Assembly (NCBI GenBank): GCA_012516665.1
Contig: JAAYWN010000150.1
Span: 1-34,515, forward strand
Reading direction: 5' to 3'
Source: Erysipelotrichaceae bacterium
Lineage (GTDB): Bacteria; Bacillota_I; Bacilli_A; Erysipelotrichales; Erysipelotrichaceae
DNA length: 34,515 bases
Positions 21,592 through 34,128 of this stretch are shown here, piece by piece. Below the pieces are notes generated by a model that did not search any database, had not been told where the DNA came from, and worked only from the letters and a program-made list of their open reading frames with translations. Within the stretch, counting starts at the first letter, position 1; every line of letters begins with the position of its first letter. The position numbers and the translations under genes were made by a program.

Positions 21592-22410
21592 TCAGATATT
21601 TCCTGGATATACATGCATTAGGTATTTCTCAGCAGTCATGCACAATGATCGTATCGTATCAGGATCTGTTGCTTTGATCTGATAGTGATATCTTGGGAAA
21701 TAGCGTGATATGTGCAGGACAATGCTTGGGTCTAAGGATGCCAGCCATTTTGCCTCTGCTTCTATAAATGCAATGGAATCATTCTTGCCAGGGATGATCA
21801 GTGATGTTACTTCAACATGGCATTGATCATAACAATAAGCAATCGTATCTTTAACAGTCTGATACTCTCCTTTCAGTTCATGATAGAATTCTGCATTGCC
21901 TTTCAGATCAATATTCATCGCATCTGTATAAGGCATCAGTTCCTTCAGTACGTTTTGTGATACACAGCCGTTGGTAACGAGAACGACTTTTTTATCCGTT
22001 CCCTTTAAGAGCTGGGCAGTATCTCGGATATACTCCCAAGAGATCATTGGCTCATTGTATGTAAAAGCGATGCCTAGATTTTCTCTCTGCGAAAGGATGA
22101 TCTTTGCCAGCTGGTCGGGGGATATTTCCCGATAATCCGCTGTTTCTTCATCGGCCATGGATATCATGGCATTCTGACAGAAGGGACAGGCAAGATTGCA
22201 GCCATAGCTTCCGACCGAAAGGATCATGGATCCCGAATAGAAATCCGCAAAAGGCTTCTTCTCTATTGGGTCCATTGCCAAGGAAGTGATCCTGCCATAG
22301 TTGGCACATGCATTGATGCCATGCCGATTCATTCTGGCTCTGCACATACCTGTCTTTCCTTCTTGGATATGACAATGATGCGGACAGATATCACAGATGA
22401 TCTCAGACAT
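21592..22410 (-). CDS. amrS: AmmeMemoRadiSam system radical SAM enzyme
   Basis: 272 residues with GAGG before the ATG. The radical SAM cluster motif is CNLACPFC (Cys71, Cys75, Cys78). An extra N-terminal Cys set (CDICPHHC plus CRARM: Cys6, 9, 13, 23) resembles the N-terminal domain of AmrS and pyruvate-formate-lyase-activase-like enzymes. GSYGCN and TNGCVSQNVL fit the fold. It overlaps the Memo-AMMECR1 gene by 8 bp, so the pair is co-translated. The family occurs across bacteria and archaea with AMMECR1 and Memo proteins; the reaction is not established to my knowledge. Confidence 0.9.
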   Translation of the reverse strand: MSEIICDICPHHCHIQEGKTGMCRARMNRHGINACANYGRITSLAMDPIEKKPFADFYSGSMILSVGSYGCNLACPFCQNAMISMADEETADYREISPDQLAKIILSQRENLGIAFTYNEPMISWEYIRDTAQLLKGTDKKVVLVTNGCVSQNVLKELMPYTDAMNIDLKGNAEFYHELKGEYQTVKDTIAYCYDQCHVEVTSLIIPGKNDSIAFIEAEAKWLASLDPSIVLHISRYFPRYHYQIKATDPDTIRSLCMTAEKYLMHVYPGNI

Positions 22411-23797
22411 GTCTTACAACCTCAAATCTCTGCATCTGAATGCCCTCTTCTTCTGGATCAATGTCTCCTTTATGACAGGCGATCCTGATCTGTTCTTCCA
22501 CAGTATCGACGCCCTCAAGGTTAGGCAGCAGCAGCCCTCTTCTGTCTCCTTTCGAGCAGATGACGCCATATCTTCTGACATCCAGCTCTTTTGGACTGGA
22601 GATATTTTCAATCTCTCCTAAGACATCTGCACTGATATGCAGATATGGCAGTTCTTTTTCTTCAATCGGTGTGAACCGAGGATCTCTTGTACTGGCGCTG
22701 ATCGCATTGGCAATGATCTCTGCAGCAATATTCATCTGTGTTGGGCAGATCGTACCGATGCATCCTCGCAGTTCTCCGTTTTCATGGATCGATACGAATA
22801 CGCCTGCTTTCTGCTGCAGCATTTCCGCCGGCAGATCCTCTGGAACATGGATCCTATGATGTTCTCGGATATAAGTTTCTAAAGATCTTCTGGCCAATTG
22901 GACATAGGGATCTTCCTTCTTCTTCTGTGCTTCGATCTTCTGTTCTTCTTTTTCTCTGAACTGATCCAGAAAGTTCCTGCTGTCATCTTTGCCATTTGCC
23001 GTATATTCGACAAAGCCATAGCCAACGCCAAGAGTTGCTTCATGCGAAAGTACTTTTGAAGTTACAGCTGTACGATCCAGTGCTCCTGCAAGGATGCAGA
23101 AAGAACGATGCCCGCACTCCATTGCCTTTTCCAAAAAGGCAGGATCATATGCAAGCAGGTTCATAAATTCCGCCTTGCCCATATCTTTCATGATTCTTTG
23201 ATCATACTGCGGCCCTTCCGGATGATATCCATAAGGACCATCTTCTTTTTCACAATGTGCCAGATCGCCGGAAGCGATCCAGGCAATTCTGCGGCCAAGC
23301 TTTTCTGCGACTGCCGCAATATGCATGCCCAATTCATAGTGCTTTGTCAAAGGAAGTCCGGAGATACCGATCCTGACGATCCTGACATGCGGCATTTCCT
23401 GCAATAGGAAATACAGCGGCACCATCGTGCCTTGATCCAGCATCCTGTCTCTGTCATATTCTGTGCCGCCGGGAAAATTGATCCTCTTCAGATATGCATT
23501 CAGTTCACATGTAAGCTCTTCATCATACGGGATATCAAAGGATACCTGCGGGGCATGATAGTTTGCAAAATCTCCATAAGCCCTTTTTCCTGAAGATATC
23601 ATGAAATAATCGGAATACATTGTGGCGTGCGGTGAAGTAATGATCACGGTATCCGGATGACATGCGGCAATGAACTTCGATGCTTCATGATAAGAAGCCA
23701 ATGTCTTTTCAATCTTTTTTTCCTCTCCTCTTCCAATCTCTTTGACCGCTACAGGAGGATGCGGTTCCATTACAGCACGAACGATCATCTCCAGCAC
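22403..23797 (-). CDS. Memo-AMMECR1 fusion protein (AmmeMemoRadiSam proteins B and A)
   Basis: 464 residues from a GTG at 23797 with AGGAG seven bases upstream; an ATG at 23788 is an alternative. The N-terminal half (about 1-265) is a Memo / class III extradiol-dioxygenase-like fold with candidate metal ligands His57 (SPHATMYSDYF) and His181 (SGDLAHC). A charged linker (EKEEQKIEAQKKKED, about 282-296) joins an AMMECR1 domain (297-464) with its hallmark LRGCIG (343-348). In many genomes the two parts are separate genes. It is the upstream partner of the radical SAM enzyme. No promoter was identified confidently in the 124-bp gap to hypA. Substrate unknown. Confidence 0.88.
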   Translation of the reverse strand: MLEMIVRAVMEPHPPVAVKEIGRGEEKKIEKTLASYHEASKFIAACHPDTVIITSPHATMYSDYFMISSGKRAYGDFANYHAPQVSFDIPYDEELTCELNAYLKRINFPGGTEYDRDRMLDQGTMVPLYFLLQEMPHVRIVRIGISGLPLTKHYELGMHIAAVAEKLGRRIAWIASGDLAHCEKEDGPYGYHPEGPQYDQRIMKDMGKAEFMNLLAYDPAFLEKAMECGHRSFCILAGALDRTAVTSKVLSHEATLGVGYGFVEYTANGKDDSRNFLDQFREKEEQKIEAQKKKEDPYVQLARRSLETYIREHHRIHVPEDLPAEMLQQKAGVFVSIHENGELRGCIGTICPTQMNIAAEIIANAISASTRDPRFTPIEEKELPYLHISADVLGEIENISSPKELDVRRYGVICSKGDRRGLLLPNLEGVDTVEEQIRIACHKGDIDPEEEGIQMQRFEVVRHV

Positions 23798-23921: not shown

Positions 23922-24290
23922 CTATGGTTCCTGTTCTGTTTCTTCGGTTTCTGCTTCGACTTCTTTAATAATGCATTCATTGCCCGCGACCAGCCATGTA
24001 TTTCCGCCATGGCAGTAAGGACATTCTTTGCCATACTTGATCGTCGGATATGTCTTATTGCAGTCGCCGCAGATCGTCACTGCCGGGGTAGATTCCAATT
24101 TCAATTCACACTCTTTGAGCAGAGGATGCTTCACTCTGAAATAGTTCCAGCAGTCCACAAAGAGATCGGTAATGATACCGGATACTTCACCGACCTGAAG
24201 CGTGACTGAGCCATACTTAGCGATATGCTTTTCTTCGGCAAGTTCATCCAATGTTTTTGCCAGATGCGTTACAATGCCCATTTCATGCAT
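23922..24290 (-). CDS. hypA: HypA-like nickel metallochaperone
   Basis: 122 residues. It begins MHEMGI, so the N-terminal Met-His-Glu nickel site (His2) is intact and fixes the start. The zinc site is CGDC...CPYC (Cys74, Cys77, Cys90, Cys93). The C-terminus is acidic (EVEAETEETEQEP), a small deviation from short HypA proteins. HypA hands nickel to hydrogenase or urease with HypB. It is the last gene of a unit with two hypB-like genes and lies 3 bp after the oxidoreductase. No nickel enzyme is encoded in the window, so its client is unknown. Confidence 0.9.
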   Translation of the reverse strand: MHEMGIVTHLAKTLDELAEEKHIAKYGSVTLQVGEVSGIITDLFVDCWNYFRVKHPLLKECELKLESTPAVTICGDCNKTYPTIKYGKECPYCHGGNTWLVAGNECIIKEVEAETEETEQEP

Positions 24291-24293
24291 AGG

Positions 24294-27074
24294 CTATTTC
24301 TGCTTCCGCTTGAACAGGATCTTCATTTCTCTCCGTGCCGCATACGGCAGTACAGCCTTCATCTTATCTTCAGATCTGAGCATACGGCTGGCATCTGGAA
24401 GATCTCTCTCCAAATGGATCGCATCGAATTCACACCTTGTTGTACATAGACCGCAGCCAATGCATCGGTTCAGATCAACCGTCGTTGCTCCGCAGCTCAG
24501 GCATCTCTTTGCCTCAATGCGCACCTGTTCTTCGGTAAGCGGCACAGAATCATCCTTAAATGGATCTGCTGTTTTCTTTCGGCCAGGGATCTGTCTCTTG
24601 GCATTGTCATATCCTTCGATATCGAGATTGTCTTTATCCAGTTCACTGAACTGTCTGAGATCTCGACCGATCGTCAGCGACTGTCCATGATGGACAAAGC
24701 GATGCATCGATTCGGAAGCCAGCTTGCCTTCTGCAATCGCATCAATCGCAAACTTCGCACCATGATAGATATCGCCGCCGGTGAAGATATCATCCTGCGA
24801 TGTCTGGAACGTTATTGGATCTGCTTTGATATATCCATTCTTATAGAGCTCGACATTTTCATCTTTCAGGAGATCCTTCCAGACAGCGGACTGTCCGATT
24901 GCTTCCAGAACATGTGCCCCCTGAATGGTCAGTGTTTCATTCTCGTCATACTGCGGATTGAATCTGCCATCCGCATCTTTGACCTGCGTGCACTTTTTAA
25001 AGAGGACACCGACAGCTTTGCCATTTTCGGTGAGGATCTCTTTCGGTCCCCAACCGTTTTTTATCACCACGCCATCTGCTTCGGCGGCTGTCACTTCTGC
25101 TTCACTGGCAGGCATTTCATGTTCGCCTTCCAAACAGAGCATTGTGACTTTGCCATCTGTCAGACGGGAAGCGGTCCTTGCTACATCGACCGCAACATTT
25201 CCGCCGCCGATGACTATGACATCGCCCTTCATGCTTTCATGAACATCCTGACTGGTACGATTCAGGAAAGATACTGCTGATTCTACGCCTTCACTGTCTT
25301 CCCCAGCAACATTGGTCTTTCTGCCGCCGCAGAGCCCAATTGCCAGATAGAAAGCTTTATAGCCTTCTGCCCGCAGCTGCTTGATCGTAATGTCTTTGCC
25401 TACTTCTGTGCCGCATTTGATCTCAACGCCCATCTGTTTCAGAACATCGATCTCTGCTTCGAGAACATTCTTTTCCAAGACAAAGTTCGGGATGCCGTTC
25501 ATCAGCATGCCGCCCGGTCTCTTTTCTTTTTCAAAGACCGTTACGTCATATCCTTTTTCTCTTAAGTAATACGCACAGCTCAGTCCGGCAGGCCCGGCTC
25601 CGATGATCGCCATCTTGTAATCCGCTCCCCACATGCCGCCATGATCCGTCTCACAGACCGGAATATATCTCTTATCCGCATCCAGTTCCTGCTGGGCAAT
25701 AAAGCGCTTGATATCATCAATGGCAACCGGTGCATCGATCATGCCTCTGGTGCATTCCTGTTCACAGCGCTTATTGCATACTGCACCGCATACATATGGG
25801 AAAGGGTTGTCTTCCTTGATCAGCTTCAATGCTTCCAAGTACTTGCCTTCACCAGCTAATTTTATATAGCCCTGCGAAGCTAAGTGAGCTGGACAGCTTG
25901 CTTTGCATGGCGCTGTCCCCGTCTCATAGCAGTTGATCTTCGCATCTTCACGATAGTGAGGATTCCAATTGTCAGCTGTCCACTTTGTTTCATCCGGCAG
26001 CAGCGTCAATGGATACTTGATCTCGCCCTGCTTTGTGCAGAGCTTCTGACCAAGCTTAGCGGCGCCGACAGGACATACTTCCACACACTTTCCGCATGCC
26101 ACGCAGTTCTCTTTATCAACATGTGCGCGATAGGCTGAGCGGGACATATTCGGCGTGTTGTACAGTTGGGAAGTACGGATCGCATTGCATACGCCAGGCG
26201 CACAGTTGCACAATCCAACGATCTTATCTTCACCGTCAATATTGGTCGTCTGATGTACAAAGCCATGACGCTCCCCACGCTCGCATACTTCAAGCGCTTC
26301 TTCTTTTGTTATGTAATGACCGCGTCCCGTATTGACGCACCACTCTGCCAAGTCGCCCAGACCAATGCAGCATTCCTGCTCCACCGATCCATCGCCTTCC
26401 CCACGCAGTGTCTGCTGTCTGCGGCAGGTGCATACACCGATGCTGAGCTTGCCTTCATATTTATCCAGCCAATGCGAAATATGTTCCATCGATACAGAAT
26501 CATTGGTTGATTCAATGGCCTTTTCTACCGGAATGACATGCATGCCAATACCGGCACCGCCTAACGGTACCATCGGTGTGATACCTTCCAATGGCATCTG
26601 TGTCATCAGATTGAAGAATGTTGCAATATTCGGGTGCTGCTTCATCAGTTCATCATTCATTACCATGAACTCTGCAATGCCCGGTACAAAGATCGGTACA
26701 TCATACTGAATGTGAGCATCCGCATTTTCACGATTTGTCTCCACACAGCCTGTCCAGCACAGATGATCCAATACTTTCTGGGCTTCTTCTTCGGTCAGAC
26801 CGTTGCGCTGAGCAATCTCTGCCAACTGCAGTGAGACTCTAGGCTTTTTAAAGCTGAGCATCATCTTCGCTTCCTGTTTGGTCAGCACTTCATCCAGGCA
26901 CCATACTTCCGGATCATCCGGTCCGATCGTATGTGTCAGTTTCGCTGCCATACGATCTGTGATCATGCCGGCAAGCTGAATAATGATCTTCTCCTTTTCA
27001 GGATCCGGAGCTACATAATTTGGGTCTAAGCGAAAATCCCAATCATTGGTCATGCGGTTCTTCTGATCTTTCAT
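24294..27074 (-). CDS. Large multi-Fe-S FAD oxidoreductase (GltD-like core, extra N-terminal domain)
   Basis: 926 residues. Residues 1-310 form an uncommon N-terminal domain: a helix-turn-helix-like segment (near 79-110) and Cys-rich CTCRRQ...ECC...CNCAPGVC (Cys215, 217, 235, 236, 289, 291, 296). Next come a ferredoxin motif CVACGKCVEVC (324-334), then a DPYD/GltD-type four-Cys Fe-S domain (about 382-450), a GltD-like FAD/NAD(P)H domain (GAGPAG 492-497 and GGGNVA 623-628), and a C-terminal ferredoxin (CLSC 858-861, then CIGCGLCTTRC 871-881). This suggests an NAD(P)H-linked flavoprotein moving electrons through several clusters. It lies between hypB and hypA with almost no spacing. Its partner subunit or acceptor is unknown. 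Confidence 0.82.
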   Translation of the reverse strand: MKDQKNRMTNDWDFRLDPNYVAPDPEKEKIIIQLAGMITDRMAAKLTHTIGPDDPEVWCLDEVLTKQEAKMMLSFKKPRVSLQLAEIAQRNGLTEEEAQKVLDHLCWTGCVETNRENADAHIQYDVPIFVPGIAEFMVMNDELMKQHPNIATFFNLMTQMPLEGITPMVPLGGAGIGMHVIPVEKAIESTNDSVSMEHISHWLDKYEGKLSIGVCTCRRQQTLRGEGDGSVEQECCIGLGDLAEWCVNTGRGHYITKEEALEVCERGERHGFVHQTTNIDGEDKIVGLCNCAPGVCNAIRTSQLYNTPNMSRSAYRAHVDKENCVACGKCVEVCPVGAAKLGQKLCTKQGEIKYPLTLLPDETKWTADNWNPHYREDAKINCYETGTAPCKASCPAHLASQGYIKLAGEGKYLEALKLIKEDNPFPYVCGAVCNKRCEQECTRGMIDAPVAIDDIKRFIAQQELDADKRYIPVCETDHGGMWGADYKMAIIGAGPAGLSCAYYLREKGYDVTVFEKEKRPGGMLMNGIPNFVLEKNVLEAEIDVLKQMGVEIKCGTEVGKDITIKQLRAEGYKAFYLAIGLCGGRKTNVAGEDSEGVESAVSFLNRTSQDVHESMKGDVIVIGGGNVAVDVARTASRLTDGKVTMLCLEGEHEMPASEAEVTAAEADGVVIKNGWGPKEILTENGKAVGVLFKKCTQVKDADGRFNPQYDENETLTIQGAHVLEAIGQSAVWKDLLKDENVELYKNGYIKADPITFQTSQDDIFTGGDIYHGAKFAIDAIAEGKLASESMHRFVHHGQSLTIGRDLRQFSELDKDNLDIEGYDNAKRQIPGRKKTADPFKDDSVPLTEEQVRIEAKRCLSCGATTVDLNRCIGCGLCTTRCEFDAIHLERDLPDASRMLRSEDKMKAVLPYAARREMKILFKRKQK

Positions 27075-27075
27075 C

Positions 27076-27738
27076 TTACTTGTCCTCTTTCCATTTCTGC
27101 ACTTCTTTTTTTAACCATGCGATCCATGCGTCCATGCCCTCTCCTGTCTTAGCCGACAATGGATAGATCTCGATCCTCGGATTCAGCATCTTCGCTCTTT
27201 TCCGGCAATCCTCCAAAGAGAAATTGAAATATGGCATCGCATCGATCTTTGATATGACCAGCACATCGCTCTTTTGGAACATCAGCGGATACTTCAGCGG
27301 TTTGTCATCCCCTTCGGGAACACTGAGGATCATGACATTCTTTCCTGCACCTGTATCAAATTCCGCCGGGCAGATCAGATTTCCTACATTCTCTAAGAAG
27401 ATCAGATCATTTTCCTTTTTCATTGATGCAAGTCCCTGTGCGCTCATGCCTGCATCCATATGGCACATGCCATCTGTATGGACCTGAATGCTTTCGGCCC
27501 CGGCCGCTTCCATTCTTTCGGCATCTACCGAAGAATCAATATCTGCTTCCATGACCCCGATCTTCATTTCATCTTTCAATGCTTTGATCGATGCCCCAAG
27601 CAGAGTCGTCTTGCCAGATCCCGGTGAGCTCATCAGATTGATCAGCAGCGATCCCTGTTCTTTCATTCTTATCCGCAATGCCTGCGCATCCGCATCATTG
27701 GATGCCGTGACGCTTTCATGGAGTTCAATGACTTTCAT
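27076..27738 (-). CDS. hypB: HypB-like GTPase, second tandem copy
   Basis: 220 residues with GGAGG upstream. It has P-loop SSPGSGKTT (Lys43), the switch segment MEADIDSSVDAERM, the metal-binding CH pair in MCHMDA (Cys92-His93) and ENVGNLICPAEFD (Cys123). The base-specificity motif NKxD is SKID here (163-166), a change that could weaken guanine recognition. The N-terminal His-rich or CxxCGC nickel store of other HypB proteins is absent. It overlaps the other hypB copy by 14 bp and is followed by the oxidoreductase after 1 bp. It probably dimerises, perhaps with the paralog, for GTP-dependent metal delivery. The client enzyme is not in this window. Confidence 0.88.
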   Translation of the reverse strand: MKVIELHESVTASNDADAQALRIRMKEQGSLLINLMSSPGSGKTTLLGASIKALKDEMKIGVMEADIDSSVDAERMEAAGAESIQVHTDGMCHMDAGMSAQGLASMKKENDLIFLENVGNLICPAEFDTGAGKNVMILSVPEGDDKPLKYPLMFQKSDVLVISKIDAMPYFNFSLEDCRKRAKMLNPRIEIYPLSAKTGEGMDAWIAWLKKEVQKWKEDK

Positions 27739-28408
27739 TGTGCATCCTCCATTCTTCTATTTCTTTCTGCAGCCAGCCGATCCATGCATCAAAACCATCT
27801 CCTGTCAAAGCGGATACACGGAAACATTGGATCTCTGGGTTCAGTGCCTCTGCCCGCTGTTCTGCTTTGGCAAAATCATAATCGAACACTTCTGCCACAT
27901 CGATCTTGTTCTCGATCATGACATCGCTGACACGGAACATCAGCGGATACTTCAATGGTTTATCGTCTCCCTCCGGAACACTGAGGATCATGACCTTCTT
28001 ATTGGCACCGACGTCGAATTCGGCCGGGCATACGAGATTCCCAACATTCTCCAAGAAAATGACATCCAGATCTTCGAGGCCCATTTCTTCTAAGCCCCGC
28101 CTGGTCATATCTGCATCCATATGACAGCTTCCGCCGGTATGGAGCTGTATCGCTCTGGCCCCTGCCGCTGCTATTGTCTTAGCATCCACATCAGAGTCAA
28201 CATCTGCTTCCATGACGCCGATCCGATACTGTTTCTGCAATGCGTGTATGGTCCGTACCAGACATGTTGTTTTGCCAGCCCCAGGAGAAGACATCAGGTT
28301 GACAAGAAAGATCTTCTTTTCCGCTAGGAGCTTTCTGACTTCTGCTGCCTCACGGTCATTATCTGCTTCAATTCTTTCTTTTGTTTCAAAGATCTCAAAT
28401 TGATCCAT
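27725..28408 (-). CDS. hypB: HypB-like GTPase, first tandem copy
   Basis: 227 residues with AAAGGAGG upstream. First gene of the unit hypB-hypB-oxidoreductase-hypA. P-loop SSPGAGKTT, MEADVDSDVDAKTI, metal pair SCHMDA (Cys95-His96), ENVGNLVCPAEFD (Cys127) and an intact NKID (167-170). It has the same deviations from classical HypB (EAD instead of EGD, no N-terminal metal tail) as its neighbour, so the two are close paralogs or a recent duplication. A Rex-like site lies just upstream of its promoter -10. Confidence 0.88.
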   Translation of the reverse strand: MDQFEIFETKERIEADNDREAAEVRKLLAEKKIFLVNLMSSPGAGKTTCLVRTIHALQKQYRIGVMEADVDSDVDAKTIAAAGARAIQLHTGGSCHMDADMTRRGLEEMGLEDLDVIFLENVGNLVCPAEFDVGANKKVMILSVPEGDDKPLKYPLMFRVSDVMIENKIDVAEVFDYDFAKAEQRAEALNPEIQCFRVSALTGDGFDAWIGWLQKEIEEWRMHNESH

Positions 28409-31530: not shown

Positions 31531-34128
31531 TTACTTCTCAATGCCAACAAATTTGTAGCCTGCATCTTCTACTGCTTTCTTGATCTCTGCTTCCGGAACA
31601 TCTCGGTCAGCAGTGATGACAGCCGTACCTGCATCATGCGATGCTTCCGCCGACACAATGCCCTTTACTCCTTCCAATCCTTCCTTGACATGTTTCTCAC
31701 ACATCATGCACATCATGCCTTCGATCTTTACTGTTTCTTTCACTTTGTTTTCCTCTTCTTTCTTATTGTCCAAAGTAACTGCACATTCTGTTTCTATGGT
31801 ACTGAACGATCTGCATATCTCATCAATTCTATCTGCATCTGCTTTATGTTTCATCGCATGGTCTGAGGATGCATCATGGATCTTTGCAAGATTCAGGCGC
31901 AGTGCATTCATGCATACGGTAAAGCTGGAAAGCGACATGGCGGCAGCGCCCCACATTGGGTTCATCTGGATACCAGGATACAGACCGGCTGCCATTGGGA
32001 TGAGAATGATGTTATAGGCAAAGGCCCAGAATAGATTCTCATGAATATTGCGGATCGCCGCACGGCTCAGACGGATCGCAGCCGCAGCATCGCTCAGTTG
32101 GGAATTCATCAGTACAGCATCCGCTGCATCGATAGCAACATCTGTACCGGCGCCGATAGCCATGCCGATATCTGCCCTGCTCAAAGCTGGAGCATCATTG
32201 ATGCCATCGCCGATCATGAGAACTTTGCCGTATTTCTGCAGTTCTGCCACTGCTTTTTCTTTGCCATCCGGACGTACGCCGGCAATAATATGATCCACCC
32301 CAGCCTGCGTGCCGATAGCTTCAGCAGTACGTGCATTGTCTCCTGTCAGCATCACCGTTTCAATGCCCATAGCTTTGATCTCAGCAATGGCCTTTGCTGA
32401 ATCTGGCTTGATGGCATCCGCAATGCCGATCATACCGAGCAGCTGATCTTCTTTGGCAAAGAAGACCGGCGTCATACCTTGTTCTGCTAAATGTTCACTT
32501 TTTAATATATATTCCTGCGGGACACGGATCTTTGTCTGCAGATAAGCTAACGAGCCAGCATACACTTTCTGCCCCTGCAGTTTTCCTTCCAGGCCATTGC
32601 CTGCATGCACAGCAAATTCATCGATCTCTTCTGCATGCATGTTCCTATCTGCCGCATATTTTATGATGGCTTTTGCCAATGGATGTTCACTATGCTCTTC
32701 CAATGCAGCTGCCGTTAACAGCAGTGTTTCTTCCGTGATGCCTTCGACCGGTATGATCTTGGCGGCTTCTGGCCTGCCGGCTGTTATGGTCCCTGTTTTA
32801 TCTAATACCGCAATCTGGATACGGCCGGTATTTTCCAGTGCTTCTGAGGTCTTGAACAAGATCCCTTGTTTTGCGCCGGCGCCATTGGCCACCATGATGG
32901 CTGTCGGTGTAGCCAATCCCAGCGCACAAGGGCATGAGATCACTAAGACAGATATCGCTCTTTCCAAAGCATAAGATACAGATTGGCCCATCAGGAGCCA
33001 TGCCATCAATACGATCACAGCAATCAGTATGACTGCCGGCACAAATACACCGGATACTTTATCCGCGATCTTTGCTATCGGCGCTTTTGTTGCAGACGCG
33101 TCGCTTACCATCTGAATGATCTGAGCAAATGCGGTATCTTCTCCGATGCGCACTGCTCTGGCTTGAAAATAGCCGGATCGATTCATGGTCGCTGCATTGA
33201 CTTGGTCATTCACTTCTTTATCTACCGGCAGAGATTCTCCGCTCAGGGCAGATTCATCGACGGCTGAGGATCCGGATATCACGACACCATCCACCGGGAT
33301 CGCTTCTCCTGGCTTTACAGCAAAGATATCCCCGATCTGCATTTCTTCGATACCGACCTTCACTTCTCTGCCATCGCGGATCAGCACTGCACTTTTCGGT
33401 GCCATCTTCAGAAGGTTCTTCAATGCATCTGTCGTTCTGCCTTTCGAAACAGCTTCCAATGTTTTTCCGATCGTGATCAGACAGGGAATCATAGCAGCCG
33501 ATTCAAAATACAGCTGATCATGATACAGTGCCATCAGATCCATGTTGCCTGCACCGCTCGTGATCATGACCGTCATCTGATAAAGAACATATACCGACCA
33601 TCCAAACGATACACTGCTTCCAAGTGCGACCAGCGTATCCATATTTGGTGCACCATGGAACAGACTGCGAAAGCCGGAAATAAAGAACTGTTTATTGATG
33701 ATCATGACGACCGCTGCTAACAGCATCTGTGTCAGTCCCAGGCCAAGATGATTATGTTCAAGAAATGATGGAAGCGGCCAATTCAGCATATTATGGCCCA
33801 TTGAAATATACATCAGCAGGATCAGGAATCCTGCCGACCAGATCAGTCTTTTCTTGAGCTTCGGTGTCTCATGATCAGCAAGAGCATCCTTCTGCTCAGT
33901 TATACTATTATGGCAATCGGCTGAATAGGCATCTTTTCTCTGTGCCCCATAGCCAGCACTTTCTACCGCTTTGATCACTGCCTGATCGCTCACATCTCCT
34001 TCCACAAGCAATGTATTGGTCAGAAGAGATACCGAGGCATTCTTCACACCGGGAATTTTAGCTGCCGCTTTTTCAACATGTGACTGGCAAGAGGCACATG
34101 TCATGCCTGTGATTCTATACTGCTTCAT
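31531..34128 (-). CDS. copA: Copper-exporting P1B-type ATPase with N- and C-terminal HMA domains
   Basis: 865 residues. An N-terminal heavy-metal-associated domain (GMTCASC, Cys11/Cys14) is followed by membrane helices with the transport motif [12 protein letters not shown] (Cys399/Cys401), phosphorylation site DKTGT (Asp443), the SEHP nucleotide-binding motif (His482) and GDGINDAPA (640-648). A second, CopZ-like HMA domain is fused at the C-terminus (about 798-865) with CMMC (807-810), after a charged linker. Most CopA proteins carry HMA domains only at the N-terminus. It pumps Cu(I) out of the cytoplasm. It follows csoR after 12 bp with AAGGAGGAG, so the two form one operon. Confidence 0.93.

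Follow-up and report, generated by a model that had tools for sequence, protein, structure and literature searches.

hypA and hypB around an IsrA-like oxidoreductase of an Erysipelotrichaceae bacterium: a candidate nickel-dependent reductase of conjugated fatty acids

Which protein receives nickel from HypA and HypB when their genes surround that of an oxidoreductase? The question is raised by a stretch of 34,515 nucleotides from a gut Erysipelotrichaceae bacterium (assembly GCA_012516665.1, contig JAAYWN010000150.1), called here the window, in which two hypB genes, the gene of a 926-residue Fe-S/FAD oxidoreductase and hypA form an operon on the minus strand. Nickel delivery by HypB and HypA under GTP hydrolysis is established for hydrogenase (as restated by Kronen et al., 2023, PMC10134865). 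The nearly gapless order hypB1-hypB2-oxidoreductase-hypA, which a first-pass annotation had described, is confirmed at the same coordinates by Pfam and NCBIfam matches. The two hypB genes overlap by 14 bp, and the oxidoreductase gene is separated by 1 bp from hypB2 and by 3 bp from hypA:

27725-28408, minus strand: hypB1, HypB-type nickel GTPase, 227 amino acids (TIGR00073 243.9 bits, cut-off 121.2; P-loop and CH...CP)
27076-27738, minus strand: hypB2, second HypB-type nickel GTPase, 220 amino acids (TIGR00073 239.4 bits, cut-off 121.2)
24294-27074, minus strand: IsrA-like multi-Fe-S/FAD oxidoreductase, 926 amino acids, proposed nickel client (domain matches; hyp linkage)
23922-24290, minus strand: hypA, HypA-domain nickel chaperone, 122 amino acids (PF01155 4.1e-26; MHE start, two CxxC)
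23893-23865, minus strand: terminator-like hairpin 3' of hypA (13-pair stem with 7 G-C, loop of 3, T-rich tail)

Both HypB proteins have the P-loop and the CH...CP metal site, and it may be that they form a heterodimer. The HypA scores 67.4 bits against TIGR00100, under the cut-off of 88.1, and is therefore filed as a HypA-domain protein and not as a hydrogenase HypA. No known nickel enzyme is found among the ten window proteins scanned, in agreement with the first-pass annotation (the remaining window genes were not scanned).

Several observations make it probable, from sequence comparison, that the oxidoreductase is itself the client of HypA and HypB. The best 80 of 375 loci with relatives of the oxidoreductase hold 82 copies that align over more than 700 residues, and 57 of these have hypA or hypB no more than 3 kb away (31 of the 47 whose flanks extend for 3 kb or more in both directions). 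Since so many related copies adjoin hypA or hypB, the arrangement is not due to chance; lack of conserved linkage, which the first-pass annotation had named as a finding that would count against its proposal, is not what is seen. Co-occurrence was followed in 115 genomes of the family, the same set serving for the oxidoreductase (E 1e-120, 7 candidates scored per genome), HypA, the NiFe hydrogenase large subunit, HypD, LarA and PAI, the isomerase introduced below (E 1e-60). The oxidoreductase is present in 25 genomes, HypA above cut-off in 31 (with weak matches under cut-off in 5 further ones), the NiFe large subunit in 7, HypD in 9 and LarA above cut-off in 11. HypA above cut-off accompanies the oxidoreductase in 24 of 25 genomes and occurs in 1 of the 84 that have neither oxidoreductase nor NiFe hydrogenase (G010, a partial match); for HypA against the oxidoreductase the Fisher value is 1.7e-17, related genomes not being independent. 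These counts bear out the idea, also put forward in the first-pass annotation, that HypA and HypB form a dedicated metal-loading module. Where the oxidoreductase occurs without NiFe hydrogenase, HypA is found in 23 of 24 genomes and HypD in 1 of 24. Because HypD is absent from 23 of these genomes, the hyp genes are not a hydrogenase maturation set. HypA and HypD are both present in all seven genomes with NiFe hydrogenase, one of which (G051) also has the oxidoreductase and shows two strong HypA matches. HypD without a detected NiFe large subunit was seen in G011 and G058. Three sampled genus mates of the window's bacterium (G031, G075 and G102) have no match to oxidoreductase, HypA or PAI, as would be expected if the set were gained or lost as a whole.

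Some facts weigh against this assignment. Twenty-five of the 82 copies, some at contig ends, have neither hypA nor hypB within 3 kb. G004, a genome 87% complete, carries the oxidoreductase gene (with one stop inside the match) and no HypA. The PF00374 matches that define the NiFe large subunit are confined to the first 70 of the 508 model positions, so that a divergent hydrogenase could be missed. Finally, the literature consulted on the IsrA-type protein reports, in the excerpts available, no nickel, activity or substrate values for purified protein.

The architecture of the oxidoreductase indicates where nickel might be bound. Pfam finds Fer4, Fer4_20, Pyr_redox_2 and a second Fer4 stretch, and a winged-helix-like N-terminus precedes the six-cysteine (Cys6) region and the core:

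26187-26432, minus strand: six-cysteine site C215, C217, C236, C289, C291 and C296 (codons 215-296), proposed Ni/Fe-S active site, from the alignment
26073-26105, minus strand: N-terminal 4Fe-4S motif, codons 324-334 (Fer4 at 318-338; cysteines in 50-51 of 51 rows)
24690-25934, minus strand: Fer4_20 and GltD/NfnB-like FAD/NAD(P)H core, codons 381-795 (PF14691 at 381-464, PF07992 at 486-783)
24432-24503, minus strand: C-terminal 4Fe-4S cysteines, codons 858-881 (Fer4-type matches; cysteines in 51 of 51 rows)

Conservation was read from alignment A1, which takes 51 of 88 copies (A2 is made of 41 of those 51). C215, C217 and C236 are kept in 51 of 51 rows, and C289, C291 and C296 in 50 of 51, the remaining row being gapped there. 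The two CxC pairs, C215/C217 and C289/C291, are 74 residues apart. In both sequence and fold, the core (about 380-795) matches PDB chains of NfnABC, Nfn and GltD, and also dihydropyrimidine dehydrogenase; a search with a model built on residues 1-348 gave no PDB match at E 0.001.

A protein of this kind is already described. Kronen et al. (2023, PMC10134865) present IsrA (VUZ27132.1) as the putative isoprene reductase of the isr operon of Acetobacterium wieringae, and propose it as a nickel target of HypA/HypB with Cys6 as possible nickel site. Among 988 IsrA homologues, these authors find hypA within five genes in 73% and hypB in 56%, and the CxC motifs of IsrA (C180/C182 and C254/C256) are also 74 apart. 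IsrA is abundant in cells on isoprene (Jin et al., 2022, PMC9765523). The idea of the first-pass annotation that the oxidoreductase is a client of HypA/HypB is thus supported, but it is not new, having been in print as a hypothesis since 2023. By its features (length, domains, Cys6 and hyp neighbours), and not by a tree, the window's oxidoreductase would belong to the IsrA, or clade 9, kind. Given the published expression data on IsrA, it is fairly likely that it performs reduction of a C=C bond. The operon is therefore a member of a published kind; what is new is a link to PAI, which the first-pass annotation had not foreseen and which adds a testable function.

This link concerns homologues of the protein in PDB entry 2b9w, which we take to be PAI, the polyunsaturated fatty-acid isomerase of P. 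acnes. The molecule name of the entry is putative aminooxidase, and a review (PMC13365329) gives Liavonchanka 2006 as the paper on its structure. The homologue at L049 matches the entry at E 6.6e-143, and the one in the window's own genome at E 8.9e-136, in two segments (residues 4-137 and 163-450 of the query) that together cover nearly its whole length. Of the 82 oxidoreductase copies, 10 have PAI no more than 3 kb away, and the arrangements observed are as follows:

L093: PAI-hypB-hypA-enzyme, contiguous on the same strand
L017: hypB-hypA-PAI-enzyme, contiguous on the same strand
L033 and L095: PAI-enzyme-hypA, contiguous on the same strand
L021 and L023 (near-identical): PAI-enzyme, contiguous on the same strand
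L049, L054, L056 and L057: PAI and enzyme as divergent pairs, 198-257 bp apart
L035: PAI and enzyme convergent, with hypA between them
L008 and L015: PAI in a same-strand cluster with a second oxidoreductase paralogue

On a tree of 86 rows, PAI linkage requires seven changes, some of which may be losses, and is therefore not one inherited event. The tree, built by a quick method with Shimodaira-Hasegawa-like approximate likelihood ratio (SH-aLRT) support only and from loci of this analysis only, omits, of the 88 copies, 3 that are truncated at an end and L094, which occupies the same position as L033, and adds 2 partial paralogues. In it, L017 and the window's copy belong to one set of 26 rows.

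Co-occurrence points the same way. PAI is found in 10 of the 115 family genomes, including the window's own, and all 10 have the oxidoreductase (Fisher 4e-8 by genome). Counted by genus, 7 of 7 PAI genera have it, versus 15 of 59 genera overall (p 2e-5). Among 391 genomes from the class of G126 (an Oscillospiraceae metagenome-assembled genome, or MAG, probably of Clostridia; 4 and 2 candidates scored per genome in the searches), 33 carry the oxidoreductase and 2 carry PAI; these 2 are among the 33, one of the two being the centre G126 itself, for which both genes were known beforehand. In genomes chosen for the oxidoreductase, representing 50 of the 80 loci, PAI was found in 21; some genomes are shared with the family sample (G022=G137 and G023=G136, with identical PAI coordinates), so that the counts are not additive. 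In the sampled genomes PAI comes with the oxidoreductase, and the converse does not hold. This link was not found in the literature surveyed, as far as the excerpts go, and the main text of PMC10134865 contains no 'linole'.

A lipid context is seen around some PAI genes. In the window's own genome, PAI is divergent from genes for an AMP-binding enzyme and an acyl-ACP thioesterase. The PAI of L097 neighbours the same two enzymes, a PP-binding (acyl-carrier-type) protein, a flavoprotein named here c7 and an FAD/2Fe-2S (FAD/Fer2) reductase, and that of L104 an AMP-binding enzyme, c7 and an FAD/2Fe-2S reductase. The c7 protein, of about 520 amino acids, is phytoene-desaturase-like, with a weak PDB match to gamma-carotene desaturase, and recurs beside PAI:

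L056, 5781-7361, minus strand: c7
L008, 2958-4499, minus strand: c7
L097, 1847-3400, minus strand: c7
L104, 2329-3867, minus strand: c7

Together with the FAD/2Fe-2S reductase, c7 perhaps carries out a further step on fatty acids.

From the gene set, its conserved linkage, the co-occurrence of HypA mostly without HypD, the conserved cysteines and the linkage and co-occurrence of PAI, all directly observed, the following scheme can be proposed. The operon would encode an IsrA-like flavoenzyme with several clusters and, dedicated to its nickel insertion, a pair that consists of HypA and the two HypB GTPases. NAD(P)H would give its electrons to the FAD in the GltD/NfnB-like core, from which they would pass through the 4Fe-4S chain to the N-terminal Cys6 site, where HypB and HypA, with GTP hydrolysis, probably put nickel; both the nickel at Cys6 and the direction of electron flow are inferences. 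The Cys6 site would then hydrogenate an unfunctionalised conjugated C=C bond. Judging from the PAI gene neighbours, the substrate here would probably be a conjugated long-chain (C18) fatty acid, made by the PAI-type isomerase from a polyunsaturated one. Isomerase and reductase together would thus perform biohydrogenation, as an electron sink or as detoxification. Gene neighbourhoods accordingly indicate that the enzyme may hydrogenate unsaturated fatty acids here. For the statement as a whole, a nickel-dependent reductase of conjugated fatty acids acting at the second step of biohydrogenation, we regard the chances as evenly balanced. The broader proposal of a nickel enzyme class for conjugated C=C hydrogenation, where PAI makes the diene and the HypAB-loaded enzyme converts it to the monoene through a nickel Cys6 cluster, is more tentative and falls somewhat below that balance.

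A number of observations speak against a fatty-acid substrate for the window's enzyme. At E 1e-60, PAI is missing from 29 of the 50 enzyme-bearing genomes, including 8 of 8 Butyrivibrio and 2 of 2 Roseburia genomes of that set; it is likewise missing, at the same threshold, from the genome of L001 (G115, 2.1 Mb), whose enzyme is 97% identical to that of the window. In L008 and L015, PAI clusters with the second paralogue, and the hyp-linked copy lies a few kb away. The PAI of G126 shares its contig with a second oxidoreductase copy, and in the Solobacterium MAG RGIG5808 the copy linked to hyp genes (L003) and the one linked to PAI (L056) are different. In the window's genome, a draft 94.8% complete, PAI and the operon are on separate contigs; in favour of the proposal, that of PAI, C217 (6758 bp), has the same GC fraction as the window (0.458 and 0.458) and a tetranucleotide correlation r of 0.972 with it. 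The lipid context was seen in the three PAI loci examined for it, most other PAI neighbours not having been scanned, and the two further neighbours scanned, beside PAI in L100 and L093, are a sugar-type major facilitator superfamily (MFS) transporter and a protein without Pfam match. Members that lack PAI may act on other substrates or rely on other isomerases. Two oxidoreductase copies are found in L028, and two copies around one hypA in L030. A hyp-linked subset, mostly Butyrivibrio (L065-L070, L072, L073, L074 and L076), is flanked by DUF5692 (PF18948) and not by PAI; its substrate may differ.

The alternative that survives best keeps the nickel-loaded enzyme and changes its substrate, which would be isoprene-like, a terpenoid or another small conjugated alkene, the PAI link then belonging to other members or paralogues. 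IsrA, the sole member found with expression data, is isoprene-induced, and both the many enzyme-bearing genomes without PAI and the position of PAI beside the paralogue in L008 and L015 agree with this alternative. However, PAI in the family sample is confined to genomes that have the enzyme, and L017, L033, L093 and L095 hold PAI, hyp genes and enzyme in one set, L017 grouping with the window's copy. In addition, the window's genome has PAI and a single oxidoreductase copy at E 1e-120 (7 of 20 candidates scored), and other Acetobacterium that bear homologues do not reduce isoprene (PMC10134865). We consider another substrate rather unlikely.

It can also be imagined that HypA and HypB load a non-catalytic cluster, or another metal, the enzyme being an NAD(P)H-ferredoxin module of the NfnB/GltD type from which another reductase draws its electrons. 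The core does match NfnABC and Nfn structures titled electron-bifurcating, and other flavoproteins (c7, and the FAD/Fer2 reductase of L097 and L104) stand near PAI in some genomes. Against this, the Cys6 cysteines and H179 are equally conserved in the alignment of hyp-linked and unlinked copies, and beyond hypA and hypB every neighbour cluster (30% identity) is found in at most 10 of the 80 loci. The maturation proteins also keep their motifs, counted with duplicates included: the nickel motifs of HypA are kept in 55 of the 57 HypA open reading frames (ORFs) of related loci, the other two differing in start codon, and the HypB P-loop and CH...CP in 64 of 64, with an NKxD-type pattern met in 47 of them. 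An electron module of this sort is thus unlikely, and a catalytic nickel site at Cys6 is preferred.

The next alternative, that HypA and HypB serve another nickel enzyme in trans, either a LarA homologue or an enzyme missing from the draft, appears very improbable. The window's genome does hold a LarA homologue (G000:C196:488-1078, minus strand). LarA is matured by LarB, LarC and LarE, which counts against it as a HypA/HypB client. Moreover, HypA is present in 18 of 18 LarA-less genomes with the oxidoreductase and in 0 of 4 LarA genomes that have neither oxidoreductase nor NiFe hydrogenase (two LarA matches, in G004 and G038, are partial), so that LarA does not explain HypA. In the same genome there is no match to PF00374 (NiFe large subunit), PF00449 (urease alpha) or PF01924 (HypD), Ni superoxide dismutase, nickel glyoxalase and acireductone dioxygenase not having been searched for, which leaves some room for an enzyme in trans; the PF01924 and PF00374 searches did match control genomes. 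The hydrogenase or urease operon elsewhere that the first-pass annotation had named as evidence against its proposal is thus not detected as a NiFe large subunit or a urease alpha. As for carbon monoxide dehydrogenase, for which the annotation had advised a search of the genome, the sole PF03063 (prismane) match, a fragment at a contig end, is a hybrid-cluster protein (TIGR01703 586.8 bits, cut-off 360.8; the other hydroxylamine reductase model, NF003658, is above cut-off as well). Lastly, that the neighbouring AmmeMemoRadiSam genes belong to the system, their product having been another client suggested by the annotation, is scarcely credible: they are adjacent in the window and in L001, but adjacency is met in 1 of the 80 loci (many with short flanks), those of L054 are on the other strand about 6 kb off, and the terminator-like hairpin between hypA and the AmmeMemo gene, which comes from a consensus scan alone (8 such sites in the region versus a mean of 5.6 in shuffles), makes the genes downstream probably a separate unit.

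In the window, a 464-residue protein (22403-23797; a LigB-like domain, then AMMECR1) is a fusion of AmmeMemoRadiSam proteins B and A, and the radical SAM partner follows at 21592-22410. A heavy-metal P-type ATPase of 865 amino acids is encoded at 31531-34128; an HMA domain lies at its N-terminus, and close to the C-terminus there is a second match to a metal-binding domain.

Through their biohydrogenation of polyunsaturated fatty acids, gut and rumen bacteria influence the amounts of conjugated linoleic acid, trans-monoene and saturated fat that end up in milk, in meat and in the host. To our knowledge, nickel-dependent hydrogenation of C=C bonds would be new nickel chemistry in biology. Judging from the excerpts consulted, the genetics of biohydrogenation look thin in the literature; a 2026 review names isomerases and the L. 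plantarum enone reductase (PMC13365329). The reductase step is testable, since a named isolate, Lactimicrobium massiliense, has the isomerase-reductase gene pair (enzyme L002, PAI in G116).

Compared with known systems, the window's operon is closest in features to that of IsrA. As excerpted from PMC10134865, IsrA and clade 9 share with the window's oxidoreductase a length of about 900 amino acids, PF14691 and PF07992, two further 4Fe-4S motifs and the CxC spacing of 74. Also shared are the hypA/hypB neighbours, a genome without NiFe hydrogenase (HypD too is absent from the window's genome) and a DUF5692 gene that is sometimes found nearby (beside 10 of 82 copies here). The isr operon differs in having two hypA, one hypB and a ferredoxin gene, whereas the window has two hypB and one hypA; PAI-type linkage is seen here in several genomes and does not figure in the main text of PMC10134865, which notes an oleate hydratase near two Acetobacterium copies. 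With the HypA and HypB of hydrogenase and urease systems, the window's proteins share the MHE start and two CxxC of HypA, and the P-loop and CH...CP of HypB. They differ in that no HypD, NiFe large subunit or urease alpha was found in the genome, that CxxCGC occurs within the first 40 residues in 0 of 64 HypB ORFs, and that HypA remains under the NCBI equivalog cut-off. The module formed by NfnB, GltD and the N-terminal part of dihydropyrimidine dehydrogenase corresponds by sequence and fold to residues 380-795 or so, to which the oxidoreductase adds the winged-helix-like N-terminus, the Cys6 region and the C-terminal 4Fe-4S cysteines. The homologue of P. acnes PAI (PDB 2b9w) in the same genome, on another contig and outside the operon, is the proposed partner. 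For the last system, the reduction of conjugated linoleic acid (CLA) in Butyrivibrio, a reductase gene was reportedly claimed by Fukuda and colleagues in 2007. The genome paper of Butyrivibrio fibrisolvens finds no linoleate isomerase gene in the strain or in the Butyrivibrio species compared (PMC6249431, in excerpt). The CLA reductase of B. fibrisolvens (Hughes, 1982; Fukuda, 2007), on which remarks concerning purified enzyme are found in PMC4478896 and PMC2654759, carries out the same reaction as that proposed for the window's oxidoreductase, from conjugated diene to monoene.

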